A DNA stretch of 64,000 nt from Komagataeibacter sp. FNDCF1 (lineage in GTDB: Bacteria; Pseudomonadota; Alphaproteobacteria; Acetobacterales; Acetobacteraceae), in contig NZ_JAIWOT010000001.1 of the NCBI RefSeq assembly GCF_021295335.1, positions 3,123,501 through 3,187,500 of the forward strand, in the 5' to 3' direction. The translations under genes and the position numbers were made by a program. The notes beneath the pieces are model-generated. The model did not search any database, was not told where the DNA came from, and saw only the letters and a program-made list of their open reading frames with translations. Of this stretch, positions 49,611 to 54,120 are shown piece by piece. How positions within the stretch are numbered: the first letter of the stretch is position 1; each line of letters begins with the position of its first letter.

Positions 49611-49640
49611 GAAAAGGGGGCACCAAGGCACCCCCTTTTC
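49611..49640 (-). terminator. Terminator after OmpA-family gene 1
   Basis: GAAAAGGGGG and CCCCCTTTTC form the stem around a ten-base centre, followed on the minus strand by TCTTTTAC. It lies 22 bases after the stop. Confidence 0.75.
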
Positions 49641-49661: not shown

Positions 49662-50768
49662 TCAGTGCAGGATGATCTCGACGCGACGGTTCTGGGGCTC
49701 ACGCGTGTCGGGGCCGGTGGGGACCAGCGGGTGGGCTTCACCATAGCCATGGATGTCGATGGCGTTGGCGGGCACGCCGTCACGGATCAGTTCAGCCTTC
49801 ACGCTGTCAGCACGACGCATGGACAGGCCAAGGTTGTACTGCTGGCCACGCGGGCCGGGGTGGGCTGCCGTGTTGTCGGTGTAGCCGTTGACCTCGATGC
49901 GCGTGGTCTGGACGTGGGTGGAAGCCTGTGCGGCCTCTGCCACGATCTCACGCGAGCGGCCGGTCAGGGCTGCGCCGTCCCAGTCGAAGAACACCAGGTA
50001 GGTGCGGGCCGCGGTCGGTGCGGGCGGCACGACGGCGGGGGCCGGCGGCGGCGGCGGCGGCGCGTTGTTGAACGCGTAGCGGACGCCTACGATGAATTCG
50101 TGGTTGAAGCGGTGGTCGAAGCGTTCAGCACTCGTGTAGCCACCACCGGAAGCGCGGATGTTGCCCATGCCGAAGTCTTCAACCTGACCAACCATGCGGT
50201 ATTCGGTGGTCATCTGCAGGCCAGACACGCCCGGGATGTCGTAGGCCGCACCGACGATACCCTGATAGGCAAAGCTGCCGTTCGTACCCTTCATCTGGGC
50301 GCCGGAGGACATGCCCGTGACATTTGCGTTTTCCCACAGGTAACCGGCACCGGCACCGACAAACGGCGTGACAGGCACATCAATGCCGAACAGACGCTTC
50401 AGGTCGATATCATACAGTACGTTGACGAAGCCGCCATACGAACGGTCATGACCCTTGGTCTTCTCGGTGTCGACACTGGTGATCGCGGTCCAGCTGTAGG
50501 CCCCTTCGACTTCGGCGCGCAGGCCGTTACCGAAACCCCAGCCGACGTTGGCAAAGCCGGTCCAGCCATGGCCGTGACGGACATGCTGGCCATAGTCATT
50601 GTTGCCGTTGGCACCGTTTTTGTCTTCAGCATCATGCATATGCTGGGTCTGGGTCAGATCGTAGCCACCGCCGATGCCGACATACGGGCCAGTGATGGTG
50701 GTTGCCTTGGCGGCGAACGGTGTCGCTGCAAGCAGGCTGGTTGCCAGCAGGGCAGAGCGGAGACGCAT
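49662..50768 (-). CDS. OmpA-family outer-membrane protein, paralogue 1
   Basis: A 368-residue outer-membrane protein. It has a signal peptide (MRLRSALLATSLLAATPFAA, then KA), an eight-strand-type barrel starting TTITGPYVGIGGGYDLTQTQ, a Pro-rich linker (PPPPPPAPAVVPPAP), and an OmpA peptidoglycan-binding domain (VEVNGYTDN-like IEVNGYTDNTAAHPGPRGQQ to REPQNRRVEIILH). AAGGA precedes the ATG. It is the third of three tandem minus-strand paralogues. From memory, Gluconacetobacter intermedius has tandem OmpA-family genes (gmpA, B, C) of which gmpA answers quorum sensing; this may be the same locus, but I cannot confirm it. Confidence 0.93.
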   Translation of the reverse strand: MRLRSALLATSLLAATPFAAKATTITGPYVGIGGGYDLTQTQHMHDAEDKNGANGNNDYGQHVRHGHGWTGFANVGWGFGNGLRAEVEGAYSWTAITSVDTEKTKGHDRSYGGFVNVLYDIDLKRLFGIDVPVTPFVGAGAGYLWENANVTGMSSGAQMKGTNGSFAYQGIVGAAYDIPGVSGLQMTTEYRMVGQVEDFGMGNIRASGGGYTSAERFDHRFNHEFIVGVRYAFNNAPPPPPPAPAVVPPAPTAARTYLVFFDWDGAALTGRSREIVAEAAQASTHVQTTRIEVNGYTDNTAAHPGPRGQQYNLGLSMRRADSVKAELIRDGVPANAIDIHGYGEAHPLVPTGPDTREPQNRRVEIILH

Positions 50769-51080
50769 ATGTTCGTCCTTCCTCATGTTATTACTTCTTT
50801 GTAAACCACATCGCACATGGGATGCGAAGATTAATCAATCTACAACCCTAAACACCGCGTGCCGCCGGGGGTTGCGTCGTTCTGCCGGACCGGGACGGCA
50901 AAAAGGTAACACCCTGGCCAATGCGCGCAAGTCAGTCGGTTTTTGCGTTACAGAACAAGTATCTAGATGGGGAAGTTTTTGCGGCAGACAAGCGCCTGGC
51001 CCCTGTAGAAAAGAATCTGGTGCAGAAATATCACAGTAGGACGGGAAGTATTTCAAAAGTTAAAAGATTTTTTCATGCAT
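50769..51080. other. Upstream region of OmpA-family gene 1
   Basis: About 310 bases lie between this gene and the terminator of paralogue 2, less GC-rich than coding DNA. They presumably hold the promoter and 5' leader. No gene is seen. Confidence 0.4.
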
Positions 51081-51110
51081 AAAAAAAGGGGGCACCGAAG
51101 TGCCCCCTTT
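51081..51110 (-). terminator. Terminator after OmpA-family gene 2, with UUCG loop
   Basis: On the minus strand AAAGGGGGCAC and GTGCCCCCTTT pair around a UUCG tetraloop closed by C-G, followed by a run of T. This is a textbook stable terminator. Confidence 0.93.
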
Positions 51111-51134
51111 CTTTCAGTGACCGACTGGCCAGGA

Positions 51135-52277
51135 TCAGTGCAGGATGATCTCGACGCGACGGTTCTGGGGCTCACGCGTGTCGGGGCCGGTGGGGACCAG
51201 CGGGTGAGCTTCACCATAGCCATGGATGTCGATGGCGTTGGCGGGCACGCCGTCACGGATCAGTTCAGCCTTCACGCTGTCAGCACGACGCATGGACAGG
51301 CCAAGGTTGTACTGCTGGCCACGCGGGCCGGGGTGGGCTGCCGTGTTGTCGGTGTAGCCGTTGACCTCGATGCGCGTGGTCTGGACGTGGGTGGAAGCCT
51401 GTGCGGCCTCTGCCACGATCTCACGCGAGCGGCCGGTCAGGGCTGCGCCGTCCCAGTCGAAGAACACCAGGTAGGTGCGGGCCGCGGTCGGTGCGGGCGG
51501 CACGACGGCGGGGGCCGGCGGCGGCGGCGGCGGCGCGTTGTTGAACGCGTAGCGGACGCCTACGATGAACTGGTGGTTGAAGCGGTGGTCATAGCGCATT
51601 GCAGCACGACCCGAGTTCTGGCCGTTATAGGATGCACCAGCGGAGATGTTGCCCATGCCGAAGTCTTCAACCTGACCAACCATGCGGTATTCGGTGGTCA
51701 TCTGCAGGCCAGGCACGCCCGGGATGTCGTAGGCCGCACCGACGATACCCTGATAGGCGAAGCTGCCATTCGTACCCTGGCGGTTGGTCGAGAAGCCCGG
51801 AGCGCCTGCGAAGGTGTTGGCCGTGCTGACGTTCTGCCACAGGTAACCGGCACCGACACCGACGAACGGCGTGACGGGCACGTCAATGTTGAACAGACGC
51901 TTCAGGTCGATGTCATACAGCACGTTGACAAAGCCGCCATAAGAACGGTCATGACCCTTGGTGCGACCGCCGTCACCGGTGCTGGTGATCGCGGACCAGT
52001 TGTAGGCACCTTCGATTTCGGCGCGCAGGCCGTTACCGAAACCCCAGCCAACGTTGGCAAAGCCGGTCCAGCCATGACCGTGGCGGGTATGCTGGCCATA
52101 GTCATCGTTGCCGTTCTGGCCGTTCTTGATCTCGGCACTGTGCTCGTGCTGGGTCTGGGTCAGGTCGTAACCACCGCCGATGCCAACATAGGGGCCGGTG
52201 ATGGTGGTTGCTTTGGCGGCAAACGGTGTTGCCGCTGCCAGCAGGCTGGTAGCCAGTAACGCTGCGCGAAGACGCAT
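51135..52277 (-). CDS. OmpA-family outer-membrane protein, paralogue 2
   Basis: A 380-residue protein with the same plan as its neighbours: signal peptide (MRLRAALLATSLLAAATPFA), barrel starting TTITGPYVGIGGG, Pro-rich linker, and OmpA domain. The last 435 or so bases (51135-51570) are almost base-identical to the matching part of paralogue 1 (49662-50097), while the barrel loops differ, with an insertion around SAEIKNGQNGNDD and FAGAPGFSTNRQG. GAGGA precedes the ATG. It has its own leader and terminator. Confidence 0.93.
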   Translation of the reverse strand: MRLRAALLATSLLAAATPFAAKATTITGPYVGIGGGYDLTQTQHEHSAEIKNGQNGNDDYGQHTRHGHGWTGFANVGWGFGNGLRAEIEGAYNWSAITSTGDGGRTKGHDRSYGGFVNVLYDIDLKRLFNIDVPVTPFVGVGAGYLWQNVSTANTFAGAPGFSTNRQGTNGSFAYQGIVGAAYDIPGVPGLQMTTEYRMVGQVEDFGMGNISAGASYNGQNSGRAAMRYDHRFNHQFIVGVRYAFNNAPPPPPPAPAVVPPAPTAARTYLVFFDWDGAALTGRSREIVAEAAQASTHVQTTRIEVNGYTDNTAAHPGPRGQQYNLGLSMRRADSVKAELIRDGVPANAIDIHGYGEAHPLVPTGPDTREPQNRRVEIILH

Positions 52278-52616
52278 ATTTAAGTCCTCAAACTCTGTTG
52301 TTGCAGGGCAAAGCCCCATCTTGTGGGCCGGGCAATGGATTTGCCCCGAAGACAGGGCAGCCTGAGATTACCCGCAAGCTATGATGCGGGGATTAGCCTG
52401 TCTGGACTGAATTGAGAATGGGTAAAATGGAGCAGGCAGGGCATGTGTGGCAAAAAAAACACATATCTTTCAGCAAGCTTTTGAAAGGCTCATGGAAAGT
52501 TGTGGGTTTATAAAGGATTTTTGCCAGTCACCAGTCAGCCCCTTCTATTTTGCATAGGACGTTGCCGGAAATGGGGGGGCTGGTTTTGTGCCTCTCCGAT
52601 CCTAAACGATTCGATA
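52278..52616. other. Upstream region of OmpA-family gene 2, with inverted repeat
   Basis: An AT-richer region containing ATGTGT (52443-52448) and ACACAT (52459-52464) as an inverted repeat with a ten-base centre full of A, a possible operator. A promoter for paralogue 2 is expected here. No gene is seen. Confidence 0.4.
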
Positions 52617-52648
52617 TGAAAAAGGGAGAATGCATGCGCATTCTCCCT
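52617..52648 (-). terminator. Terminator after OmpA-family gene 3
   Basis: AGGGAGAATGC (52623-52633) pairs with GCATTCTCCCT (52638-52648), followed on the minus strand by TTTTTCATATC. Confidence 0.9.
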
Positions 52649-52688
52649 GATTCCCGAAAGGTTTCCGGTTTCTGGAACGGGCCGCCGG

Positions 52689-53918
52689 TCAGTGCAGGAT
52701 GATCTCGACGCGGCGGTTCTGGGGCTCCCGCGTGTCGGGCCCGGTGGGGACCAGCGGACGGGCTTCACCATAACCCTGCACGGCAATGGCGCTGGCGGGC
52801 ACGCCGTCACGGATCAGTTCGGCCTTCACGCTGTCCGCGCGGCGCATGGACAGGCCAAGATTGTACTGCTGGCCACGCGGGCCGGGCTGGGCGGCCGAAT
52901 TGTCGGTATAGCCGTTCACCTCGATGCGGGTGGTCTGGACGTGGCCGGATGCCTGTGCCGCCTGCGCCACGATTTCCCGCGCGCGACCGGTCAGGGCCGC
53001 GCCATCCCAGTCAAAGAACACCAGGTAGGTACGGGCCGCCACCGGTGCGGGCGGCACGACGGCAGGGGCCGGCGGCGGCGGCGGCGGGGCGGTGTTGAAC
53101 GCATAGCGGACGCCAACGATAAACTGGTGATTGAAGCGCTGGTCATAGCGCAGGTGGCTGTTATCCGTGCCGTAGGTGCCGTTGTTGTACGACTGGGTGA
53201 TGTTGCCCATGCTGAAGGACTCGACCTGCCCGACCATGCGGTATTCGGTGGTCATCTGCAGTCCGGCAACCCCGGGTATGTCATAGGCCGCACCGACAAT
53301 GCCCTGGTAGGCGAAGCTGCCATTTGTGCCGTGCTGGCGCAGGTTGAGGCTGCTGTTGGATGCCATTACCGTGTTGCTGTTCACATTTTCCCACAGGTAA
53401 CCGGCACCCACACCGACGAATGGCGTGACAGGCACGTCGATGTTGAACAGGCGCTTGAGGTCGATGTCATACAGTACGTTGACAAAGCCGCCATAGGAAC
53501 GGTCGCTGCCCTGGGTCCGGCCCGAAGTGGCGCCGCCCCTCGGGCCGCCCTGGCTGAAGCTCATCCCCGACAGGCCGGACCAGCTGTAGGCCCCTTCCAC
53601 TTCGGCGCGCAGGCCGTTGCCAAAGCCCCAGCCAACCGCCGCGAAGCCGGTCCACCCATCACCATGGCGCATCCGTTCGCGGTAATGTTCGTGGGGGGTG
53701 TATGTATTCGCGATGTCGGCCCTCTGGGCGGCACTCGTGCCGTGACTGACATAGTCATTCATCAGGGCTTCATTGTCGAAATCATGAACATGCTGGGTCT
53801 GGGTCAGGTTATAACCGCCCCCGATATCGGCATAGGGACCGGTGATTGTTGTTGCCATGGCGGTGACAACCGGTGTCGTGGTCAGTGCAGTCGCCAGCAA
53901 TGCCGCGCGAAGACGCAT
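52689..53918 (-). CDS. OmpA-family outer-membrane protein, paralogue 3
   Basis: A 409-residue member, the longest and most diverged of the three. It has a signal peptide (MRLRAALLATALTTTPVVTA), a barrel starting TTITGPYADIGGGYNLTQTQ with large extra loops (HDFDNEALMNDYVSHG and FSQGGPRGGATSGRTQ), the PPPPPPAPAVVPPAP linker and a C-terminal OmpA domain ending RREVEIILH-like. The C-terminal domain differs from the other two at several sites, so it seems outside the recent homogenisation. AAGGA precedes the ATG. Confidence 0.93.
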   Translation of the reverse strand: MRLRAALLATALTTTPVVTAMATTITGPYADIGGGYNLTQTQHVHDFDNEALMNDYVSHGTSAAQRADIANTYTPHEHYRERMRHGDGWTGFAAVGWGFGNGLRAEVEGAYSWSGLSGMSFSQGGPRGGATSGRTQGSDRSYGGFVNVLYDIDLKRLFNIDVPVTPFVGVGAGYLWENVNSNTVMASNSSLNLRQHGTNGSFAYQGIVGAAYDIPGVAGLQMTTEYRMVGQVESFSMGNITQSYNNGTYGTDNSHLRYDQRFNHQFIVGVRYAFNTAPPPPPPAPAVVPPAPVAARTYLVFFDWDGAALTGRAREIVAQAAQASGHVQTTRIEVNGYTDNSAAQPGPRGQQYNLGLSMRRADSVKAELIRDGVPASAIAVQGYGEARPLVPTGPDTREPQNRRVEIILH

Positions 53919-54120
53919 ATTCCCGTCCTTGATACTTGATCAGACGCCTTCTTTCCTGTGGAGATGGGGGCATTCCACACTGGCCTGATGCTTGTTGACA
54001 CAATTGGCCCGGGGGCCGTGATCTCGGTGCCGGCGGGAAGGTGGGAACATGACGTGCATCCAGCCCAGCCAACCCATGGCGGGACCGTTGTGCGGGGCAA
54101 GGATTGAAATACGGTAAATG

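Follow-up and report, generated by a model that had tools for sequence, protein, structure and literature searches.

Organization of the three-gene OmpA-family array

Komagataeibacter sp. FNDCF1 carries three OmpA-family genes, all on the minus strand, between aroKB and a GtrA-like gene, beyond which lie a TenA/PqqC-like gene and alaS. The genes are numbered 1 to 3 in the order of transcription (Table 1). Positions given without a locus handle refer to the window, the whole stretch of 64,000 nucleotides that was analyzed. The initial annotation, made from the sequence alone, had described three tandem OmpA paralogs, and the C-terminal OmpA domain (PF00691) indeed scored above the Pfam cutoff in all three, with E-values of about 1e-14 to 1e-15. 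In an AF2 model of the gene 1 product (mean pLDDT of 73.7, with most barrel strands above 85), an eight-stranded barrel whose loop 1 is long is followed by a proline linker and then by the OmpA domain. E. coli OmpA was among the Foldseek structure matches, in line with an eight-stranded N-terminal barrel. Loop 1, which is helical in the model (residues 47-80), is long only in gene 1 of the array. Two residues, D339 and R360 (gene 1 numbering), were invariant in 48 of 48 sequences, and we take them to be the conserved Asp and Arg of the peptidoglycan-binding site. A fourth, unlinked OmpA homolog is found elsewhere in the FNDCF1 genome and in most genomes of the genus (L056:1814-2959); it was 54% identical over the matched part and, at such divergence, gave no sign of conversion.

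The view that each gene has its own leader and terminator was confirmed. The three upstream sequences are distinct and each is conserved by position, and a GC-rich hairpin followed by a T-run was present after all three genes. A terminator pattern scan caught the sites of genes 1 and 3 and missed that of gene 2. A search of the locus against Rfam returned no match, and promoter scans at the locus found nothing above chance. The leader of gene 2 has a predicted fold and is strongly conserved, but covariation is nearly absent, and no RNA element is claimed there.

Table 1. Features of the FNDCF1 array, listed in the direction of transcription
Feature	Position in window	Strand	Basis
Leader of gene 1, position-specific	53919-54090	-	12-genome alignment
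Gene 1, probable gmpA; OmpA-family, 409 aa; first surface loop with extra segment	52689-53918	-	Pfam OmpA; AF2 model
Intrinsic terminator after gene 1	52623-52648	-	GC-rich hairpin and T-run
Leader of gene 2, kept by position across the genus	52278-52440	-	Mean column identity 89%, 14 genomes
Gene 2, probable gmpB; OmpA-family, 380 aa	51135-52277	-	Pfam OmpA
Homogenized block, gene 2: last barrel strand, Pro linker, OmpA domain	51135-51570	-	2/436 differences; 162-site run
Intrinsic terminator after gene 2	51081-51114	-	15-pair hairpin and T-run, z -4.9
Leader of gene 3, position-specific	50769-50940	-	12-genome alignment
Gene 3, probable gmpC; OmpA-family, 368 aa; gene-2-type barrel	49662-50768	-	Pfam OmpA; barrel tree
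Homogenized block, gene 3	49662-50097	-	2/436 differences; 162-site run
Intrinsic terminator after gene 3	49611-49640	-	GC-rich hairpin and T-run

Distribution and copy number

Among the 78 named loci compared, the other genera of acetic acid bacteria have a single ompA gene between aroKB and, where found, gtrA/alaS. The tandem array was found in Komagataeibacter and also in Novacetimonas, where it is cut by contig ends. One genome of another genus (L152) has two tandem ompA copies that are identical over 1191 bases, a separate recent duplication. Two genes were present in the K. europaeus draft. The second of these (L041:2084-3178) has gene 2 sequence upstream and gene 3 sequence downstream, and either fused naturally or reflects collapse during assembly. 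In the K. xylinus K2G30 draft, a gap of 11 Ns interrupts the array (L037:3757-3767), and several further drafts end within it, so that the number of copies cannot be counted safely in drafts.

Homogenization of genes 2 and 3

The homogenized blocks of genes 2 and 3 aligned without gaps and differed only at positions 49734/51207 and at the last base, 50097/51570. Within the last 396 coding bases, gene 2 differed from gene 3 at a single position and from gene 1 at 43. The extent of the block was placed on the AF2 model of gene 1. The surface loops of the two FNDCF1 genes differ, including in length. The longest concordant run comprised 162 polymorphic sites (p ≤ 0.0001 by permutation of polymorphic sites), indicating that the identical block did not arise by chance. 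These results agree with the initial annotation, which had noted near base-identity of these two paralogs, differences in their barrel loops, and greater divergence of the third paralog, which is gene 1 (52689-53918).

Conversion was analyzed in the 13 Komagataeibacter genomes in which both gene 2 and gene 3 are complete, with one genome per species, so that the comparison runs across species. In the permutation test, 10 of the 13 genomes supported tracts at p ≤ 0.01, and support was weak in G010, G004, and G001 (p of 0.03-0.06). Genes 2 and 3 of K. diospyri and K. swingsii showed no recent homogenization, with 25/81 and 21/83 four-fold differences, respectively.

Different parts of the genes grouped in different ways. 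All 24 of the 24 signal peptides had as nearest neighbor the one at the corresponding position in a different species, and flanks and intergenic stretches also clustered by position across the genus (the gene 2-3 spacer of FNDCF1 was 54-71% like those of other species, against 25-39% for the K. europaeus gene 1-2 spacer set beside the gene 2-3 spacers of other species). For the linker and OmpA domain, 10 of 12 genomes had the same-genome paralog as nearest neighbor of both copies. Whole-length grouping by position, the pattern that had been set against conversion at the outset, was thus true only of the flanks, leaders, and signal peptides; the linker and OmpA domain grouped by genome. AU tests rejected gene 2 or gene 3 as a single clade, both for the barrel (p ≤ 1e-50) and for the OmpA part (p ≤ 2e-5).

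Synonymous sites gave the same picture. In the linker and OmpA domain, FNDCF1 genes 2 and 3 differed at 1 of 86 four-fold sites, and mean between-species divergence at such sites was 0.228 for gene 2 and 0.252 for gene 3. A Fisher test of the FNDCF1 gene 2-3 sites gave p = 0.001 against the FNDCF1-K. rhaeticus comparison for gene 2 and p = 0.03 against that for gene 3. Paralogs were closer than orthologs at synonymous sites and their flanks were conserved by position, as in concerted evolution. Conversion between gene 2 and gene 3, as initially suggested, is supported jointly by the synonymous sites, by the trees and their AU tests, and by flanks that keep to their position, and we put the probability of recurrent, partial conversion between these two genes of a gmp-type array at roughly 85%.

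Histories of barrels and loops

Conversion was originally proposed to affect the OmpA domain and linker while the surface loops diversify. The loops do change quickly (dN/dS of 0.38-0.55, versus 0.04-0.12 for the strands and OmpA domain); with values below 1, this is fast change and not a demonstration of positive selection. The proposed limit of the tract did not hold. Genes 2 and 3 were also 95-99.7% identical in barrel and loops in 6 of the 13 genomes. Three of these six genomes were assembled in 4-5 contigs, which makes draft collapse an unlikely cause of barrel identity in those three.

The barrel tree contained two old types, B and C. Type B belongs to gene 2 and type C to gene 3 in K. 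rhaeticus, K. oboediens, FXV3, G008, and K. diospyri. Both genes of FNDCF1 have a type B barrel, and that of gene 3 is sister to K. rhaeticus gene 2 (support 100/99), whereas the closest relatives of FNDCF1 have a third-gene-type barrel in gene 3. Judged from this sequence pattern, FNDCF1 gene 3 was probably overwritten through the barrel. Gene 1 was mostly separate from genes 2 and 3 in the trees. The OmpA part of K. melomenusus gene 1 (L046:553-1794) groups with genes 2 and 3 of the xylinus group, and by this single clear exception gene 1 too appears to be converted at times.

Such a mosaic might also have been built by horizontal replacement of single genes out of other species. The divergent type B barrel of FNDCF1 gene 2 had no close relative and no donor among the genus genomes searched (best match 86%), and loops 2, 3, and 4 of K. 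swingsii gene 2 (L034:3160-4254) are the same as those of K. rhaeticus gene 3. Replacement alone is nevertheless unlikely, as it leaves unexplained the agreement of both OmpA parts within each of ten genomes. Given the unmatched barrel of gene 2, sequence may also have been brought in from elsewhere than the array, alongside conversion.

Genes 2 and 3 could instead be young duplicates, formed by copy loss and re-duplication through unequal crossing over. The second K. europaeus gene joins its two flanks as an unequal-crossover deletion would, and the tandem pair identical over 1191 bases in another genus also speaks for this reading. The gene 2-3 spacer, however, is kept in FNDCF1 and in the 12 genomes compared, and spacers, leaders, and signal peptides cluster by position genus-wide. 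A re-duplicated fused gene could not restore the gene 2-3 spacer, and we therefore regard re-duplication as quite improbable. Strong purifying selection without recombination is close to untenable as the reason for the likeness of the copies, conserved as the OmpA domain is (dN/dS of 0.04-0.09). The likeness extends to four-fold sites, at which species diverge from one another and gene 1 diverges from gene 2 (mean 0.39), and the 1/86 differences set against the between-species means are not explained by selection on the protein.

Identity of the locus and quorum sensing

Iida et al. (2008) reportedly described three adjacent homologous gmp genes, with an extra surface-loop segment in GmpA. We assume this segment to be the mark of GmpA, which fits gene 1. 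FNDCF1 has three adjacent OmpA homologs, an arrangement found, among the 78 loci compared, only in vinegar-type bacteria (another genus having its own recent pair), and an extra surface-loop segment in the first gene. The locus is thus very probably gmpA-gmpB-gmpC, in keeping with the identity first suggested for it.

The initial annotation had also tied the locus to quorum sensing and acetic acid fermentation. In reviews, K. intermedius gmpA encodes an OmpA-family protein that is raised by GinA and restrains acetic acid fermentation (PMC8102297, PMC7889782), and the FNDCF1 array could be under GinI/GinR/GinA control as in that species. The genes for such control are absent from FNDCF1. No LuxI-type AHL synthase family match was found in its genome, which is 99.97% complete, the best match to GinR was 31% identical and not a close one, and a GinA-like protein, searched with a query chosen by its place beside the synthase and not by published sequence, had no match in the genome. 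These results contradict control of the array by endogenous AHL. An AHL synthase was present in 7 of 19 genomes of the genus, and close GinR and GinA-like genes (the latter again by synthase adjacency) were found in the same seven among the 13 genomes searched. Since FNDCF1 has no AHL synthase, close GinR, or GinA-like gene, the quorum-sensing link does not carry over to this strain, and control of its array by this system is most improbable.

Proposed mechanism and significance

We propose that the array encodes three tandem OmpA-family proteins that would tether the outer membrane to peptidoglycan, and that a single ompA gene gave rise to it within the Komagataeibacter/Novacetimonas lineage. 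The leader, signal peptide, and terminator stay with each gene, and non-reciprocal homologous recombination between genes 2 and 3 would repeatedly copy the mature coding sequence of one into the other. The tract covers the linker and OmpA domain in most species, with nearly identical copies there, and reaches the barrel and loops in some. With a tract ending before the barrel, or a swap of barrel types, different loop sets remain on the same anchor. The tracts recur across species in this pattern, between flanks that are fixed by position. The recombination is presumably RecA dependent, and a uniform anchor under separate promoters might be useful to the cell. Loop variety may have a role at the surface of the cell, such as in defense against phages or under acid or biofilm conditions. 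It is possible, though doubtful, that genes 2 and 3 serve to shuffle surface loops, keeping a shared peptidoglycan anchor and exchanging entire barrels or sets of loops between two differently controlled promoters; if so, this would be surface variation in a free-living bacterium.

Partial, recurrent concerted evolution at a known three-gene locus is well supported. Promoter, surface loops, and membrane anchor have different histories here, which provides a clean natural experiment across a genus. There are also practical consequences: gmpB and gmpC cannot be traced as orthologs over their full length, draft assemblies break at this locus, and the quorum-sensing account of gmpA is not transferable to most members of the genus.

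Comparison with known systems

The locus itself has been described before, and exchange between its genes adds a new case of a commonplace process; a text search of our literature library found no report of gene conversion at this locus. Like gmpA-gmpB-gmpC of Gluconacetobacter (Komagataeibacter) intermedius NCI1051, the FNDCF1 array is of the OmpA family and belongs to a vinegar bacterium, but FNDCF1 lacks the quorum-sensing genes that drive gmpA in NCI1051. The neighboring porin paralogs omp2a and omp2b of Brucella likewise exchange segments by gene conversion, with changes in their loops (PMC7050475), whereas the Komagataeibacter array consists of three genes in direct repeat, with a separate leader and terminator for each. 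Outer-membrane protein genes of bacteria are said to undergo concerted evolution commonly over short times; in Komagataeibacter, by comparison, the homogenized part varies by species, being the anchor alone in some and the anchor plus the barrel in others.
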